From Arthrobacter rhizophilus (GTDB lineage: Bacteria > Actinomycetota > Actinomycetes > Actinomycetales > Micrococcaceae), in assembly GCF_026241105.1 (NCBI RefSeq), contig NZ_JAPFFT010000001.1, positions 248,001-312,000 of the forward strand: a DNA stretch of 64,000 nt, given 5' to 3'. Both the position numbers and the translations under genes were made by a program. Below the pieces are notes generated by a model that worked only from the letters and a program-made list of their open reading frames with translations, was not told the origin of the DNA and did no database searches. Shown here piece after piece: positions 56,023 through 64,000 of the stretch (position 1 is the stretch's first letter; each line of letters opens with the position of its first letter).

Positions 56023-56895
56023 CTATAACGTGAGAGGTGCTGCCGCAACGGTGGGGAGCGTCGGTTTCTTCGAGCCGCCCACGGGTTCCACGGTGATCCC
56101 GATGGCTGCCGCGCTGGAAATGCCCGAGACCACCGCCGGATGGCTCAGGGCTTCGGCGTCCATGAGTCCCTGGGATACGGGGTCGGAGCCGTCCTTGGGA
56201 ATGAGCCACATCTGATAGACCTTGCCCGCGGGGGGAGCGGGAACTCCGTTCATGCGGACCACCACAGCGTTCTTCGTGCTGGAAATGGACACGGTGGCAG
56301 TGCCGCCGCCGTTGACGTTGACGGTAGCTTGCCGGACATCGCCGGCCTGCAGGACCTGGTTCACGGGATCGTTCTGCCCGGCTACATAGACGCCTACGCC
56401 CACCCCGCCAAGGGCAATCACCGCAGCAGCCGCGGCGGCCGCCACCCAACCGCGGACGCCGCCGAAACGTCGCCGATCCCGTCGGTTCCGGGCTGCGGCG
56501 AGGTCCACGACGTCGGGGGCAACGTGCATTATTGTGGGGCCAGCCGACGCTTCGGGAGCCGGCGACGGCGCGGATGCCACGCGTGGTTGTTGGGGGAGCT
56601 GCCGCAGAATGTCCTGCAAGAGCCCAGGCCGCGGTTCGGCCTCGTCGGCGAAGGAGGTGGCGAGGGTTTCGCGTGACTGCCTGACCCGGTCAAGGAACGC
56701 TGAGCGTTCAGGCGCGGTGGCAATGTAGTTGTCGATTTCCGCGCGCTCGGCGTCGCTCAGCGCGTCGAGGGCATAGATCTCGGCAAGCTCCAAGACGCGG
56801 CCTTCGGCAAGATCAATGGCTATATCGGTGGCGAACATCTTGCGGAGGTAACCTTCCTTCCCGAAGTTCTGCTTGTTGTCATCGTGTTCGGTCAT
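56023..56895 (-). CDS. rskA: anti-sigma factor, RskA-like
   Basis: A 290-residue membrane anti-sigma factor. The N-terminal cytoplasmic part (about 30-130) has EIYALDALSDAERAEIDNYI, the sigma-binding region. One helix follows (about 155-178, GWVAAAAAAAVIALGGVGVGVYVA). The outer RskA domain (about 185-290) has VYQMWLIPKDGSDPVSQG and SIGITVEP-like text near the end. It should hold SigK inactive until proteolysed. It starts one base behind the sigma factor stop. A start at MFATDIAIDL is possible. Confidence 0.92.
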   Translation of the reverse strand: MTEHDDNKQNFGKEGYLRKMFATDIAIDLAEGRVLELAEIYALDALSDAERAEIDNYIATAPERSAFLDRVRQSRETLATSFADEAEPRPGLLQDILRQLPQQPRVASAPSPAPEASAGPTIMHVAPDVVDLAAARNRRDRRRFGGVRGWVAAAAAAAVIALGGVGVGVYVAGQNDPVNQVLQAGDVRQATVNVNGGGTATVSISSTKNAVVVRMNGVPAPPAGKVYQMWLIPKDGSDPVSQGLMDAEALSHPAVVSGISSAAAIGITVEPVGGSKKPTLPTVAAAPLTL

Positions 56896-56896
56896 G

Positions 56897-57562
56897 TCAG
56901 CTCACCCCCAGGCAAGTCTTGAGTCGGAGAAGTCCATCGCGGATGCGGGACTTGATGGTCGGAATCGCGGCACCGAGTTGTTCGGCGACTTCCCGATAGG
57001 TGAGCCCGCCATAGTAGGCGAGCCGCACGGATTCCAATTGCGTTTCCGTAAGGGTGCCAAGGCAACGGGTGACTGCTTCGGCCTCAAGCCGGCTGCTGGC
57101 TTCTTCTTCCACTGAATCGTGGTCAAGGAGTTGGCTCGCTGCGCCATACTTCGCTTCGCGGTCCGTGGCCGACTGGGCCGAACGGACGCGGTCGATCGCC
57201 CGCCTGTGGGTGATGGTCATGAGCCAGGCGAGCGGACTGCCCGCCTCGGGATTGAATTTGGCCGCGTTCTGCCAGACCTGGATGAAAACTTCCTGGGTGG
57301 TATCTTCGCTCAAGCCCGCATCTACCAAGACGCGCTTGGCCATCCCGAAGACCCGCCGCGCGGTGAGCCGGTAGAACTCGCTGAAGGCGGCCCGGTCGCC
57401 GTCGGCCATCAACCCCAGCAATTCCGCAAGCTGCGCATTGGAGCCGGCTATCAGGCCGGGGGCCTCGGGGCCTCGCACATTCGGTGTATCCATCACCGTC
57501 CAGCATAGATTGCTCGTGACCCCGGCAGTACCAGAAGCACTGCGAGTCTTGAGAGTAGTCAC
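56897..57562 (-). CDS. sigK: ECF sigma factor, SigK-like
   Basis: A 221-residue ECF sigma factor. Region 2 has DRAAFSEFYRLTARRVFGMAKR's first part and the -10 helix WLMTITHRRAIDRVRSA. Region 4 has LAYYGGLTYREVAEQLG and TIKSRIRDGLLRLK, the -35 recognition helix. Pairing with an RskA-like gene supports the SigK name. GTG 57562 has GGAAGGGG upstream; ATG 57493 (MDTPNVRGP) would give 198 residues, also normal for the family. The upstream gene trmL is on the same strand with a 162-base gap. Confidence 0.92.
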   Translation of the reverse strand: MTTLKTRSASGTAGVTSNLCWTVMDTPNVRGPEAPGLIAGSNAQLAELLGLMADGDRAAFSEFYRLTARRVFGMAKRVLVDAGLSEDTTQEVFIQVWQNAAKFNPEAGSPLAWLMTITHRRAIDRVRSAQSATDREAKYGAASQLLDHDSVEEEASSRLEAEAVTRCLGTLTETQLESVRLAYYGGLTYREVAEQLGAAIPTIKSRIRDGLLRLKTCLGVS

Positions 57563-60317: not shown

Positions 60318-60737
60318 TCAGCGACGCGAGGCTACGGCCAAGCGGTTGAGCGCGAGTGCGGCCACCAGCAGCCCGAAGTCGCGGAGTGCGACGTCGAAGA
60401 AGTTGCCGAGCACCAGCAGGTTCACGATGATACCCAGAAGCCATACGGCTACCAGGAGCGAGCCAAAGCGCGGGCGGACCGCTACCGCAATACCGGCCAC
60501 AATCTCTACGACGCCCACGATGTACATGAATGTCTGGGCAGGGATCGGCACCACCGAGGTGGCCACGGGGGCCAGGTAGATCGTCCAGTGGGTAAGCAGA
60601 TTGGTGAACTTGTCCAGGCCGAAAATGATCGGCGCCACGGTGAACACGGTCCGGAGGAGCAGGAATGCCTGCCGCTGTGGATCCATGGACGTGAGTGATC
60701 CGGTTTTCGCTCGGGTTGCGGATGATGCAGTGTTCAT
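60318..60737 (-). CDS. DoxX family membrane protein
   Basis: A 139-residue protein with four membrane helices, beginning with a polar 20-residue stretch and then AFLLLRTVFTVAPIIFGLDKF, the DoxX start block. Other helices are in FMYIVGVVEIVAGIAVAV and LLVAVWLLGIIVNLLVLG. Functions in the family range from quinone and thiol redox chemistry to unknown. ATG 60737 has AGAGG upstream; the open frame extends over the intergenic operator, so longer starts are unlikely. Divergent from a Cys-rich regulator that probably controls it. Confidence 0.88.
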   Translation of the reverse strand: MNTASSATRAKTGSLTSMDPQRQAFLLLRTVFTVAPIIFGLDKFTNLLTHWTIYLAPVATSVVPIPAQTFMYIVGVVEIVAGIAVAVRPRFGSLLVAVWLLGIIVNLLVLGNFFDVALRDFGLLVAALALNRLAVASRR

Positions 60738-60747
60738 GATGGCCTCT

Positions 60748-60826
60748 TCTAAAAGTAGATAGCTTGATTTTAGAATGTTCGGAGGAATTAAGCAACGAGT
60801 GTTGTTTTTAGAGTTAAGCTGGATCC
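60748..60826. promoter_or_regulatory. divergent promoter/operator region, DoxX gene and SufR-like regulator
   Basis: For the DoxX gene, TTGCTT (60795-60790) and TAAAAT (60772-60767) are 17 bases apart on the minus strand. TCTAAAA (60748-60754) and TTTTAGA (60768-60774) form an inverted repeat over that -10, and TTTTAGA recurs at 60806-60812. CAAC-GAGT-GTTG (60793-60804) is a perfect dyad over the DoxX -35 and close to the start of the regulator gene. Confidence 0.65.
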
Positions 60827-61492
60827 ATGACCGGACTTCCCTGGCTGCGTCGACTCTCGGCCCTCGCATCGCTCGACGACGGCAACCGCCGCCGCTTGTA
60901 TGAACACGTCTGCGGTGCCAACCGCGCGGTGAGCCGCGACGACGCCGCGATGGCTCTCGGACTTCCCCGGAGCACCGCCTCCTTCCACCTGGACCGGCTG
61001 GTCCGGGACGGGCTCCTGAGCGTTGAATTCCGCAAACTCGGTGGCAAGGTTGGGCCAGGTTCCGGGCGCCCCGCGAAGCTCTACGCCCCGGTCATTGAAG
61101 AGATCGGCGCCTCGGTTCCGGAGCGCCACTATGACCTCGCCGGGGAAGTGATGGCCTCGGCCATCCAGGATCTGATGGCCGAGGGAGGTTCCCCCCGTGA
61201 GGTACTCCTCGGAACTGCTTATGCGCGGGGCCGCGAGGCCGGAAGCGCCGAGCCGCAATTCCTGGACCTTCTCGCGAGCCACGGCTATCGCCCGGAAGCT
61301 GACGACGACGGTGGGTACTCCCTGGTCAATTGCCCGTTCCACCGGCTGGCCGAAAGCCACACGAACGTCGTCTGCGCCATGAACGGCGCCTTCCTGAGCG
61401 GAGCGGCGGCCGCGTGCGGAATTGCCGAGGACCGGATCGCCGATGACAACCGCGAAGGCCATTGCTGCGCCAGGATCCGCCCCGCGGTTTGA
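60827..61492 (+). CDS. SufR-like winged-helix regulator with C-terminal cysteines
   Basis: A 221-residue regulator. The N-terminal winged helix-turn-helix (about 17-90) has VSRDDAAMALGLPRSTASFHLDRLV and the wing GSGRPAKLY. The C-terminal domain has cysteines at 169 (NCPFH), 183 (VVC), 197 and 213-214 (HCCARI), spaced 13, 13 and 15-16 residues apart. This resembles the CX12-14 pattern I recall for the iron-sulfur sensor SufR. It should bind the dyad in its own divergent promoter. The next gene but on the same strand is a cysteine desulfurase, which fits a role in iron-sulfur or redox sensing. The cofactor is inferred. Confidence 0.85.
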   Translation: MTGLPWLRRLSALASLDDGNRRRLYEHVCGANRAVSRDDAAMALGLPRSTASFHLDRLVRDGLLSVEFRKLGGKVGPGSGRPAKLYAPVIEEIGASVPERHYDLAGEVMASAIQDLMAEGGSPREVLLGTAYARGREAGSAEPQFLDLLASHGYRPEADDDGGYSLVNCPFHRLAESHTNVVCAMNGAFLSGAAAACGIAEDRIADDNREGHCCARIRPAV

Positions 61493-61560: not shown

Positions 61561-62829
61561 GTGCCTGTTTATCTGGACCATGCCGCCACCACGCCCATTG
61601 CCGCCGTCGCCCTCAGTGCAATGACGCGCGAACTGGCGCGGACTGGGAACCCCTCGTCGCTGCACTCTTCGGGGCGCCGTGCCCGGCGAACGGTGGAAGA
61701 AGCGCGCGAGGCCATTGCCGCCGCTGCCGGGGCGCATCCTTCCGAGCTCATCTTCACGTCCGGAGGTACCGAGGCCGACAACCTCGCAGTCAAGGGCCTG
61801 TACTGGGCCCGCCACGACGAAGACGGCCGCCGCAAGCGGATCCTTTGCTCCGCCGTCGAGCACCATGCCGTGCAGGACACCGTCGAGTGGCTTGAACGGC
61901 ACGAAGGAGCCGAAGCAGTCTGGCTCCCTGTCGATTCCCAAGGCGTGGTGCGGCTCGACGCTGTCCGGACAGAGATCGAACGCGATCCGGAATCGGTGGC
62001 CTTGGTGACCGTCATGTGGGCAAACAATGAGGTCGGGAGTATCCAGCCGGTCAGGGAGATCGTGGAACTCGCTGCAGGTCACGGCATTCCCGTGCACTCG
62101 GACGCCGTCCAGGCTTTCGGCTCGATCCCCCTGGGTTTCCGCGAATCGGGGCTCGCCGCGATGTCGGCGTCGAGCCACAAAATCGGCGGCCCAGTGGGCG
62201 TGGGCGCCCTGTTCCTCGGGCGGTCCACCAAGGTCACGCCCGTTCAGCACGGGGGAGGGCAGGAACGCGACGTCCGCTCGGGAACACTGGATACAGCGTC
62301 GATCGCGGCGTTCGCCGCCGCGGCGGAGTCAGCTGCCCAGAACCTGCCCGCGGAGCGCGAGCGAATCGGTGCTTTGCGCGACCGGATCATTGACGGAGTC
62401 CAGGCGGCCATTCCCGAGGCAGTGTTGCGCGGAGCGCCTGGAGACGCCCGGCTTCCGGGCAACGCGCACTTCACCTTCCCGGGATGTGAGGGCGATTCCT
62501 TGCTGTTCCTGCTGGACCTCGCGGGTATTGAGTCCTCCACGGGATCCGCCTGTACCGCAGGCGTCCCCAGGCCTTCGCACGTCTTGCTTGCCATGGGGCT
62601 GGATGAGGACACCGCGCGGGGCGCGCAGCGATTCAGCCTGGGGCATTCCTCGAACGATGCCGACGTCGACTCGTTGCTCAGCGCGCTGCCCGGCGCGTAC
62701 GCCCGGGCGAGGTTGGCCGGAATGGCCGGGCATGAGTCCAGTATCCAGACCGCGGCGACGGTGGCCCGCGGCTATGTCGGCGACTCTGCCAGGGGCCCAG
62801 CAGGAGATCAGGCTTCCGGCAACAACTGA
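61561..62829 (+). CDS. cysteine desulfurase, NifS/IscS family
   Basis: A 422-residue PLP enzyme that takes sulfur from cysteine as a persulfide for iron-sulfur clusters or thiolated tRNA. It starts PVYLDHAATTPI from a GTG. Marks are FTSGGTEADNLAVKG, the PLP lysine in SASSHKIGGPVGVG, and the catalytic Cys in STGSACTAGVPRPSH, a short loop typical of the IscS-like class. The C-terminal 40 residues are extra and low in complexity. No ribosome binding site is clear; TAGACT lies six bases before the GTG, so the mRNA may be leaderless. Its 3' end overlaps the convergent reductase by 22 bases. Confidence 0.93.
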   Translation: MPVYLDHAATTPIAAVALSAMTRELARTGNPSSLHSSGRRARRTVEEAREAIAAAAGAHPSELIFTSGGTEADNLAVKGLYWARHDEDGRRKRILCSAVEHHAVQDTVEWLERHEGAEAVWLPVDSQGVVRLDAVRTEIERDPESVALVTVMWANNEVGSIQPVREIVELAAGHGIPVHSDAVQAFGSIPLGFRESGLAAMSASSHKIGGPVGVGALFLGRSTKVTPVQHGGGQERDVRSGTLDTASIAAFAAAAESAAQNLPAERERIGALRDRIIDGVQAAIPEAVLRGAPGDARLPGNAHFTFPGCEGDSLLFLLDLAGIESSTGSACTAGVPRPSHVLLAMGLDEDTARGAQRFSLGHSSNDADVDSLLSALPGAYARARLAGMAGHESSIQTAATVARGYVGDSARGPAGDQASGNN

Positions 62830-64000
62830 TCCAACGGCACCGCAGGGTCAACCAAGCGGTCGGTGTCGACGCGGACCCGCCCGGCAATCAACGCCTTGAT
62901 GGGCTTCTGGACGCGTTGCTGGTTGACGCTCATACCGGCCACCACGGCACTGTCCCGCAGCCAGAAGGCAATGAAGCTGTTCTCCTCCATCGAGCCGCGG
63001 ATGACGGGCGCCGAACCCGCCGCCAGCGTGGGATATCCCCAGTACTCCATCGAGACGTCGAACTGGTCCGTGTAGAAATACGGGACCACGTCCAGCATCG
63101 CGTCCTGCCCCAGCATCGCTTTGGCCGCGACCTTGCCGCCGTTGAGGGCGTTGGACCAGTGCTCGCTGCGGTGGTGCTCGCCAGTGAAGGGGTGGAGGGC
63201 ATTGGCAACGTCTCCCGCCGCAAAGACATCGGGACTGCTGGTCCGGAGCGAAGAATCGACCACGATTCCATTCCGGATTTCCAGCCCCATGGCTTCGGCC
63301 AGGGCGGTGTCCGGAACAACGCCCACGGCCACCACCAACAGGTCGGCTGGAAGGACCTCGCCGGAGTTGGTGACAACCGCCTGTGCCTTGCCGTCACGTC
63401 CCCTGATCTCCGCTGCGCTCGCGGGGAGCCGGAACTGGACGCCGTGCTTTTCGTGCAGGTTGCGGAAGAAGCCACCCAGCTCGGGTCCGATGGCCAGGCT
63501 CAGTGGCACGTCCTCCAATCCCAGCAGGGTCACCGCGTTGCCGTAGCTCCTGGCGGCCGCGGCAAGCTCCATGCCGATCCAGCCAGAGCCGACCATCACC
63601 ACGTTCCTTCCGCCGACTGACAGCCCTTCCTTGAGTTTGCGCGAATCGTTGAAAGTCCGGAACGTCGTGACGCCGGCCAGTTCGGAACCGGGGAGGGGGA
63701 TGTGCCGCGGTTGCGCTCCCGTGGCAATGAGTAGCCGGCTGAACTCGAGTTGCGTCCCTGAATCCAGCTGCAGGGTGTGGGTGGCAGGATCGGCGGCAAT
63801 GGCCGCCTCGCCGAGGAGGAGTTCGACGCCGTTCTCCTGGTACCAGCCGGCCGCCAGCACCGGGACGGCGTCCTCGTCTGCCTTTCCCAAGAGAAACTCC
63901 TTGGAAAGCGGAGGACGCAGATAGGGCTGCTCATCCTCGGCGCAAACCACCGTGATCCTGCCTTCGAATCCTTCTGAGCGTAGGGTTTTGGCGGCGGTGG
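62808..64000 (-). CDS. FAD-dependent ferredoxin-reductase-like oxidoreductase (partial, N-terminus cut off)
   Basis: 397 residues are visible and the frame stays open to the right edge, so the first FAD motif is missing. The visible start reads KTLRSEGFEGRITVVCAEDE, then PYLRPPLSKEFLLGK, a family block. LLIATGAQPRHIPLPG is the ATG motif, VVMVGSGWIGMELAAAARSYG the NAD-binding fingerprint, and VFAAGDVANA the second FAD contact. The C-terminal domain is of the ferredoxin/rubredoxin reductase type. The partner protein is not visible. Its 3' end overlaps the cysteine desulfurase gene on the other strand. Confidence 0.92.
   Translation of the reverse strand, partial: TAAKTLRSEGFEGRITVVCAEDEQPYLRPPLSKEFLLGKADEDAVPVLAAGWYQENGVELLLGEAAIAADPATHTLQLDSGTQLEFSRLLIATGAQPRHIPLPGSELAGVTTFRTFNDSRKLKEGLSVGGRNVVMVGSGWIGMELAAAARSYGNAVTLLGLEDVPLSLAIGPELGGFFRNLHEKHGVQFRLPASAAEIRGRDGKAQAVVTNSGEVLPADLLVVAVGVVPDTALAEAMGLEIRNGIVVDSSLRTSSPDVFAAGDVANALHPFTGEHHRSEHWSNALNGGKVAAKAMLGQDAMLDVVPYFYTDQFDVSMEYWGYPTLAAGSAPVIRGSMEENSFIAFWLRDSAVVAGMSVNQQRVQKPIKALIAGRVRVDTDRLVDPAVPLDQLLPEA

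Follow-up and report, generated by a model that had tools for sequence, protein, structure and literature searches.

Genes and features of the locus

The window, a stretch of 64,000 nucleotides, corresponds to C11:248001-312000 of a 4.8-Mb genome. Near and just past its end lie five genes, in the order doxX (minus strand), a regulator (plus), a cysteine desulfurase (plus), an FAD ferredoxin reductase (minus) and mnmA (plus). Among named relatives, the regulator is closest to those of Arthrobacter strains, the best being that of Arthrobacter sp. AZCC_0090 (95%). The features of concern are as follows.

60318-60737, minus strand: doxX, 139 aa, divergent proposed target gene with a sub-threshold PF07681 match
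60747-60775: candidate operator O1, TTCTAAAA-N13-TTTTAGAA, covering the -10 of doxX and some sequence downstream of it
60767-60795, minus strand: predicted doxX promoter, from consensus matching
60784-60813: candidate operator O2, a weaker dyad that overlaps the doxX -35 and stops 13 bp short of the start codon of the regulator
60793-60804: CAAC-GAGT-GTTG palindrome, lying in O2 and regarded as a chance occurrence
60827-61492, plus strand: regulator, 221 aa, with an N-terminal ArsR/MarR-type winged helix and a C-terminal cysteine domain
61561-62829, plus strand: cysteine desulfurase (NifS/IscS-like), a neighbour probably outside the regulon
62808-64000 within the window, minus strand, start codon at 64046 past the window end: ferredoxin (FAD) reductase, second proposed target
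64109-64137 (contig C11:312109-312137): candidate operator O3, ATCTAAAACTGATAGTTTTGACTTTAGAA, with 2 mismatches, 109 bp past the window end
64256, plus strand, past the window end: start of mnmA, the next gene after the reductase

Gene assignments vary in strength. The doxX product scores 19.9 bits against PF07681 (E 0.0012), under the cut-off of 23.6, and the desulfurase, which the initial annotation had rightly placed after the regulator, scores under every equivalog cut-off listed. Matches of the reductase to Pyr_redox_2 and Reductase_C are above cut-off; its best-scoring models are aromatic-dioxygenase ferredoxin reductases, with HcaD at 320 bits, below the cut-off of 450.

A conserved dyad at the doxX promoter

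Consensus matching predicts a minus-strand doxX promoter with a -35 element TTGCTT (plus-strand positions 60790-60795), a 17-bp spacer and a -10 element TAAAAT (60767-60772). An earlier reading of the sequence had drawn attention to two elements here: a CAAC...GTTG palindrome overlapping the -35, and TCTAAAA/TTTTAGA repeats over the -10. Both lie where they were described, the palindrome, CAACGAGTGTTG, at 60793-60804 and the repeat, TCTAAAAGTAGATAGCTTGATTTTAGA, at 60748-60774.

The palindrome had been likened to a SufR-type operator, and this likeness did not survive comparison. CAAC-N4-GTTG occurs once in the window against 0.87 expected, and at least once in 62 of 100 shuffles; among the 69 orthologous promoter regions of the genus it is found in two. 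The SufR operator, given as CAAC-N6-GTTG in PMC13421787, occurs in none of the 69 orthologous upstream regions. For its chance-level occurrence and absent conservation we reject CAAC-GAGT-GTTG as the operator, and we judge it a chance feature within the larger conserved O2, in which the kept letters are not its own.

The repeat at the -10 behaves otherwise. In its own genome O1 is the sole such repeat (exact pattern, spacer 10-16), and of 101 genomes of the genus 71 contain the exact TCTAAAA/TTTTAGA repeat, whereas its reversed control is found in 0 of 101. Its occurrence also follows that of the regulator: exact O1 is found in none of the 17 genus genomes that lack a strong match to the regulator (10 have no match, 7 have matches near 1e-4 only), as against 71 of the 84 others.

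Orthologous loci from the genus (n=69) permit a closer comparison with doxX; 91 of the 101 genomes had a match, and the matches beyond these 69 were split, partial, weak (~1e-4) or left out. Intact, divergent doxX is present in 59 of these loci and absent from eight; the gene is broken in one (L008) and 5'-truncated in another (L027). O1 accompanies 58 of the 59 intact genes, the remaining locus (L037) carrying one change, and is found neither in the eight doxX-less loci nor in L027. O2 is retained in all eight doxX-less loci, with conserved columns in evidence. At L008:1296-1417 (minus strand) doxX is reduced to a broken remnant, and only half of O1 but all of O2 is kept. Among named relatives (n=80), O1 at up to 2 mismatches is present in 70/70 loci with a divergent doxX match and 0/10 without; one of the 70, L083, has a doxX remnant only and comes from a genome of the same species as L008. 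These operator-target counts, like those for O3 below, are raw, with kinship ignored. Judged by such comparison, O1 and doxX are gained and lost together across the named relatives, and the conserved element at doxX is O1, not CAAC-GAGT-GTTG.

The predicted promoter within these dyads is itself well kept. All 58 loci with O1 have the -10 TAAAAT; the -35 varies among TTGCTT, TTGATT, TTGTTT and TTGCTA, and the best spacer by consensus matching is 17 in 48 of the 58, 18 in seven and 16 in three. The -35 sits in the left part of O2. The right halves of O2 and O1 are the same, TTG(A/T)TTTTAGA, and some dozen relatives have an almost complete dyad at O2, TCTATAATCAAGAGATCTTGACTTTGGA. The earlier proposal of operators over the divergent doxX promoter is therefore upheld at the level of candidate sites, with O1 and O2 covering the -10 and -35 and conserved across the genus.

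A candidate operator before the ferredoxin reductase

The same comparisons point to a second proposed target, absent from the initial annotation: the ferredoxin reductase, with an operator of its own past the window end. O3 lies ~60 bp upstream of the reductase, between it and mnmA, and the predicted reductase promoter (-35 TTGACC, 17 bp, -10 TAAAGT) is placed in O3 as the doxX promoter is placed in its operator. A genome scan at up to 3 mismatches returned three sites, all on contig C11: O1 (0 mismatches), O3 (2) and one more (3). Since a reversed control returned four, the scan alone proves nothing, and O3 rests on its conservation.

That conservation is extensive. The reductase was found in 61 of the 80 named genus loci, beside mnmA, and O3 is present at up to 4 of 16 mismatches in all 61 (46 at up to 2 and 60 at up to 3); for each of the 61, a match of this quality arose in 0 of 200 letter shuffles. 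Fifteen of the 19 loci without the reductase have mnmA, and the best upstream match there has 8-10 mismatches in every case. O3 is thus missing before mnmA wherever the reductase is missing, from which we conclude that it belongs to the reductase; an assignment of O3 to mnmA is rejected on the same ground.

Losses of the two proposed targets complement one another. All 10 named loci without doxX keep the reductase together with O3, which would account for their keeping the regulator, and all 19 loci without a detected reductase keep doxX. O3 and the reductase are, on this sequence comparison, gained and lost together in the named relatives, so that each of the two proposed target genes has a one-to-one link to a site of its own.

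Further exact sites in genus genomes may mark additional targets. Among the extra ones listed, the reductase accounts for four (G030, G033, G034, G083). Five more are situated upstream of a membrane protein of 158 aa (G002, G018, G036, G082, G088), and one, in G059, has no recognised gene beside it. The 158-aa membrane protein has weak DUF1440/DUF6789 Pfam matches (loci L227, L228, L231, L233, L236, L130). It lies directly behind doxX in L130 and has no match in the window's own genome.

Domains and cysteines of the regulator

The N-terminus of the regulator matches HTH_20 at 31.8 bits (cut-off 27), and residues 5-93/94 of its predicted model match ArsR/CadC/CzrA chains, for example 6j05_A (Z 12.2, rmsd 1.9, 80 aligned). 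Sequence searches among solved structures gave no full-length relative. A fold search with the full-length model returned the winged helix only, and the C-terminal part was therefore modelled separately (pLDDT 92.9, pTM 0.89). Its top matches are TRAPP subunits, MopR-type sensor domains and H-NOX, all of them weak: the best TRAPP matches reach a Foldseek E of 0.24 and a Z of 8.8 (rmsd 3.2 over 121), and MopR and PoxR give Z values of 7.7 and 7.1.

Cysteines occur at positions 29, 169, 183, 197, 213 and 214. Conservation was followed in the genus orthologs and in a class-level set of 67 loci (L160-L226), taken from relatives listed at E <= 1e-20; the genus alignment, A1, covers 66 of the 69 loci, with L015, L038 and L058 left out for alternative start choice. 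C169, C183, C213 and C214 are invariant in 69/69 genus and 67/67 class loci, and N168, P170, F171 and N186 are likewise invariant in all 67 class loci. C197 is kept in 51 of the 69 genus orthologs and is mostly leucine in the class. The evenly spaced cysteines reported earlier are thus present, but their evenness is partly fortuitous, C197 being poorly kept. As a set, the four invariant residues are compatible with a site for an iron-sulfur cluster or a metal.

Relation to SufR, ArnR and phenol sensors

The regulator had been called SufR-like, and in one sense this is apt. Its profile aligns with that of the genome's suf-linked SufR over 202 columns (probability 96.6), from which shared ancestry follows, and the three cysteines of the suf-linked protein align with C169, C183 and C214. 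Identity with SufR is another matter. The regulator is not listed for TIGR02702, the NCBIfam SufR model, at E <= 1; the suf-linked gene, run as a control, scores 76.3 bits (E 2.6e-21), itself under the cut-off of 178.8. The genome's two SUFBD matches lie on contig C22, where a distinct SufR-like gene sits next to sufB; the regulator lies on C11 and is not linked to suf. Cysteine spacing is 13/28 in the suf-linked protein and, as published, in SufR Rv1460, as against 14/30-31 in the regulator. One review gives the ligands of Synechocystis SufR as C164/C171/C206, which fits neither 13/28 nor 14/30 spacing. Synechocystis SufR is described as having a divergent target and autoregulation, and this arrangement is the one proposed here (further sources: PMC6034842, PMC10436651, PMC2744654).

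Could the regulator nonetheless be SufR itself, acting on CAAC...GTTG boxes to control sulfur or iron-sulfur genes, the adjacent desulfurase included? Besides the profile match, this reading can draw on the desulfurase, which adjoins the regulator in 76 of the 80 genus loci. It must contend with the separate SufR gene beside sufB, the missing TIGR02702 match, the absence of the SufR operator at the regulator locus and the near or complete lack of either box form among the orthologs, and with the lack of any desulfurase match around the 67 class-level regulators; we regard it as very remote. The desulfurase is probably a neighbour rather than a target, no candidate operator having been found before it and no linkage outside the genus.

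Another parallel is offered by ArnR of Corynebacterium glutamicum (Cgl1185), a [4Fe-4S] repressor released by nitric oxide, as described in PMC12343034. ArnR is represented here by its published residue numbers: its cysteines, C179/C193/C223, are spaced by 14 and 30, and C169/C183/C213 of the regulator have the same spacing. The two proteins have an N-terminal winged helix in common. The nearest fold of the ArnR sensor is given as TRAPPC3 (PMC12343034), and TRAPP is matched, weakly, by the C-terminal model of the regulator. ArnR is reported to have bound a 30-bp promoter fragment, and the class-level dyad of the regulator loci is also 30 wide. No SufR or ArnR structure appears in the fold-match lists, which excludes nothing.

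The parallel has its limits. The regulator has a fourth invariant cysteine, forming a CC pair, whereas PMC12343034 describes no fourth conserved cysteine in ArnR. The genes repressed by ArnR are narKGHJI and hmp, and its own gene is a neighbour of nar; the regulator is linked to doxX and the ferredoxin reductase, and narI of this genome is on another contig, C9. In three distant genomes only (G357, G287 and G373) narI, the nitrate reductase gamma subunit gene, and the regulator are arranged tail to tail with ~90 bp between them, in the following pairs.

G357:C1:1059320-1060696: regulator and narI
G287:C1:4477793-4479170: regulator and narI
G373:C12:340223-341606: regulator and narI

Neither the regulator nor doxX was found beside narI at the 30 other narI loci scanned, so the regulator-nar link is thin.

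Phenol sensors of the V4R kind, MopR and PoxR, present a further comparison, their predicted C-terminal fold being similar to that modelled for the regulator. The remaining parts of these proteins and their DNA sites are not known to be related to those of the regulator. Even so, the model is about as close to the MopR and PoxR domains as to TRAPP, and the models that fit the reductase best are those of ferredoxin reductases from aromatic-dioxygenase systems. Both points suit a version of events in which the same repressor acts at the same operators, but its cysteines bind zinc or work as thiols, and it is the V4R-like domain that senses a phenol, a quinone or another electrophile. Zinc is also reported in ArnR preparations (PMC12343034). 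The cysteines speak the other way: their spacing is that of ArnR and three of them align with those of the suf-linked SufR, and both kinds of protein hold [4Fe-4S] clusters. The extra CC pair is diagnostic neither way. We consider a zinc or thiol sensor unlikely, if a serious contender.

Distribution across Actinomycetes

At E <= 1e-20 the regulator has relatives in 87 of the 296 genomes of the class, and in 46 of the 114 genera. Profile search found doxX in 28 of the 67 class loci. A fixed dyad width of 29 failed at this level; widths of 27-32 were then allowed and pointed to 30. A TTCTA...TAGAA dyad matching 9 or more of the 10 core letters was found in 20 of the 28 doxX loci, against 7 of 560 letter shuffles; all 20 such dyads are 30 wide, and they lie between doxX and the regulator; by this measure the other eight loci have no good dyad. 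Inner arm pairs match within the dyad in 43 of 80 cases against 31.2 expected, and 6 of 5000 permutations did as well, a comparison that related sequences inflate. Of 27 loci from another family, 21 carry doxX and 23 show a best dyad of at least 9/10, the latter count standing without a shuffle control.

Gene order was read in 45 of the 67 class loci, and the divergent operons of 12 chosen loci were surveyed for folE. The gene is present in eight of these 12 (L169, L172, L174, L176, L177, L181, L189, L194), seven of which also have the reductase. That of L174 encodes a GTP cyclohydrolase I scoring 193.5 bits against TIGR00063, above cut-off. The order is doxX, folE, reductase in L177 and L181, and doxX then reductase in L183, L192 and L193; in L168, doxX and the reductase lie downstream of the regulator on the same strand. 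A search for additional operator targets in the larger class loci turned up little beyond the sites already known.

A proposed cysteine-based switch

Taken together, these observations lead us to favour an ArnR/SufR-like dimeric autorepressor that has its own operator, senses through an iron-sulfur cluster and controls doxX and the reductase. We regard this as probable, though well short of certain; the sites, their target links and the invariant cysteines come directly from the alignments, and DNA binding, repressive sign, cofactor and signal are what we infer. In such a mechanism the C-terminal V4R/TRAPP-like domain would hold the cluster on C169, C183 and C213 or C214, and the cluster-loaded dimer would bind the dyad with half-site CTTGAYNTTAGAA (TTCTA...TAGAA, 29-30 bp). 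The repressor would cover the doxX -10 at O1, the -35 of doxX together with the promoter region of the repressor gene itself at O2, and the reductase -10 at O3. Loss or nitrosylation of the cluster, by nitric oxide or oxidants, would release it, and DoxX, the reductase and the repressor itself would then rise together.

The sign of control deserves separate comment. Iron-sulfur regulators of both signs exist, and position alone is no proof of sign; the regulator might therefore use the same sites to activate doxX and the reductase, or exert both signs according to cluster state. Yet O1 and O3 sit over -10 elements and the bases downstream, and O2 over a -35, all of them repressor positions. 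ArnR and SufR, moreover, are described as repressors. Activation strikes us as quite improbable.

DoxX proteins, though common, are little understood. With a dedicated cysteine sensor recurring beside doxX and the reductase, and a candidate operator recognisable from sequence, it may become possible to learn under what conditions DoxX is made and for what reason. For such work the locus supplies an exact candidate DNA site together with natural cases of loss, and it would widen the known range of ArnR/SufR-type sensors to many Actinomycetes. More tentatively still, these regulators may stand alongside SufR and ArnR as a third branch of winged-helix sensors with a cysteine cluster, spread across the Actinomycetes: a nitric-oxide or oxidant switch with the operator code TTCTA-N20-TAGAA, turning on DoxX, the ferredoxin reductase and, in some lineages, GTP cyclohydrolase. 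We find this broader proposal plausible but could readily see it fail; if it is true, DoxX gains a defined stress role. A search of the open-licence PMC literature found no paper joining DoxX with the regulator, folE or the reductase.

Elsewhere in the window, two neighbouring open reading frames at 56023-57562 (minus strand) look like genes for a sigma factor of the ECF type and the anti-sigma factor belonging to it.
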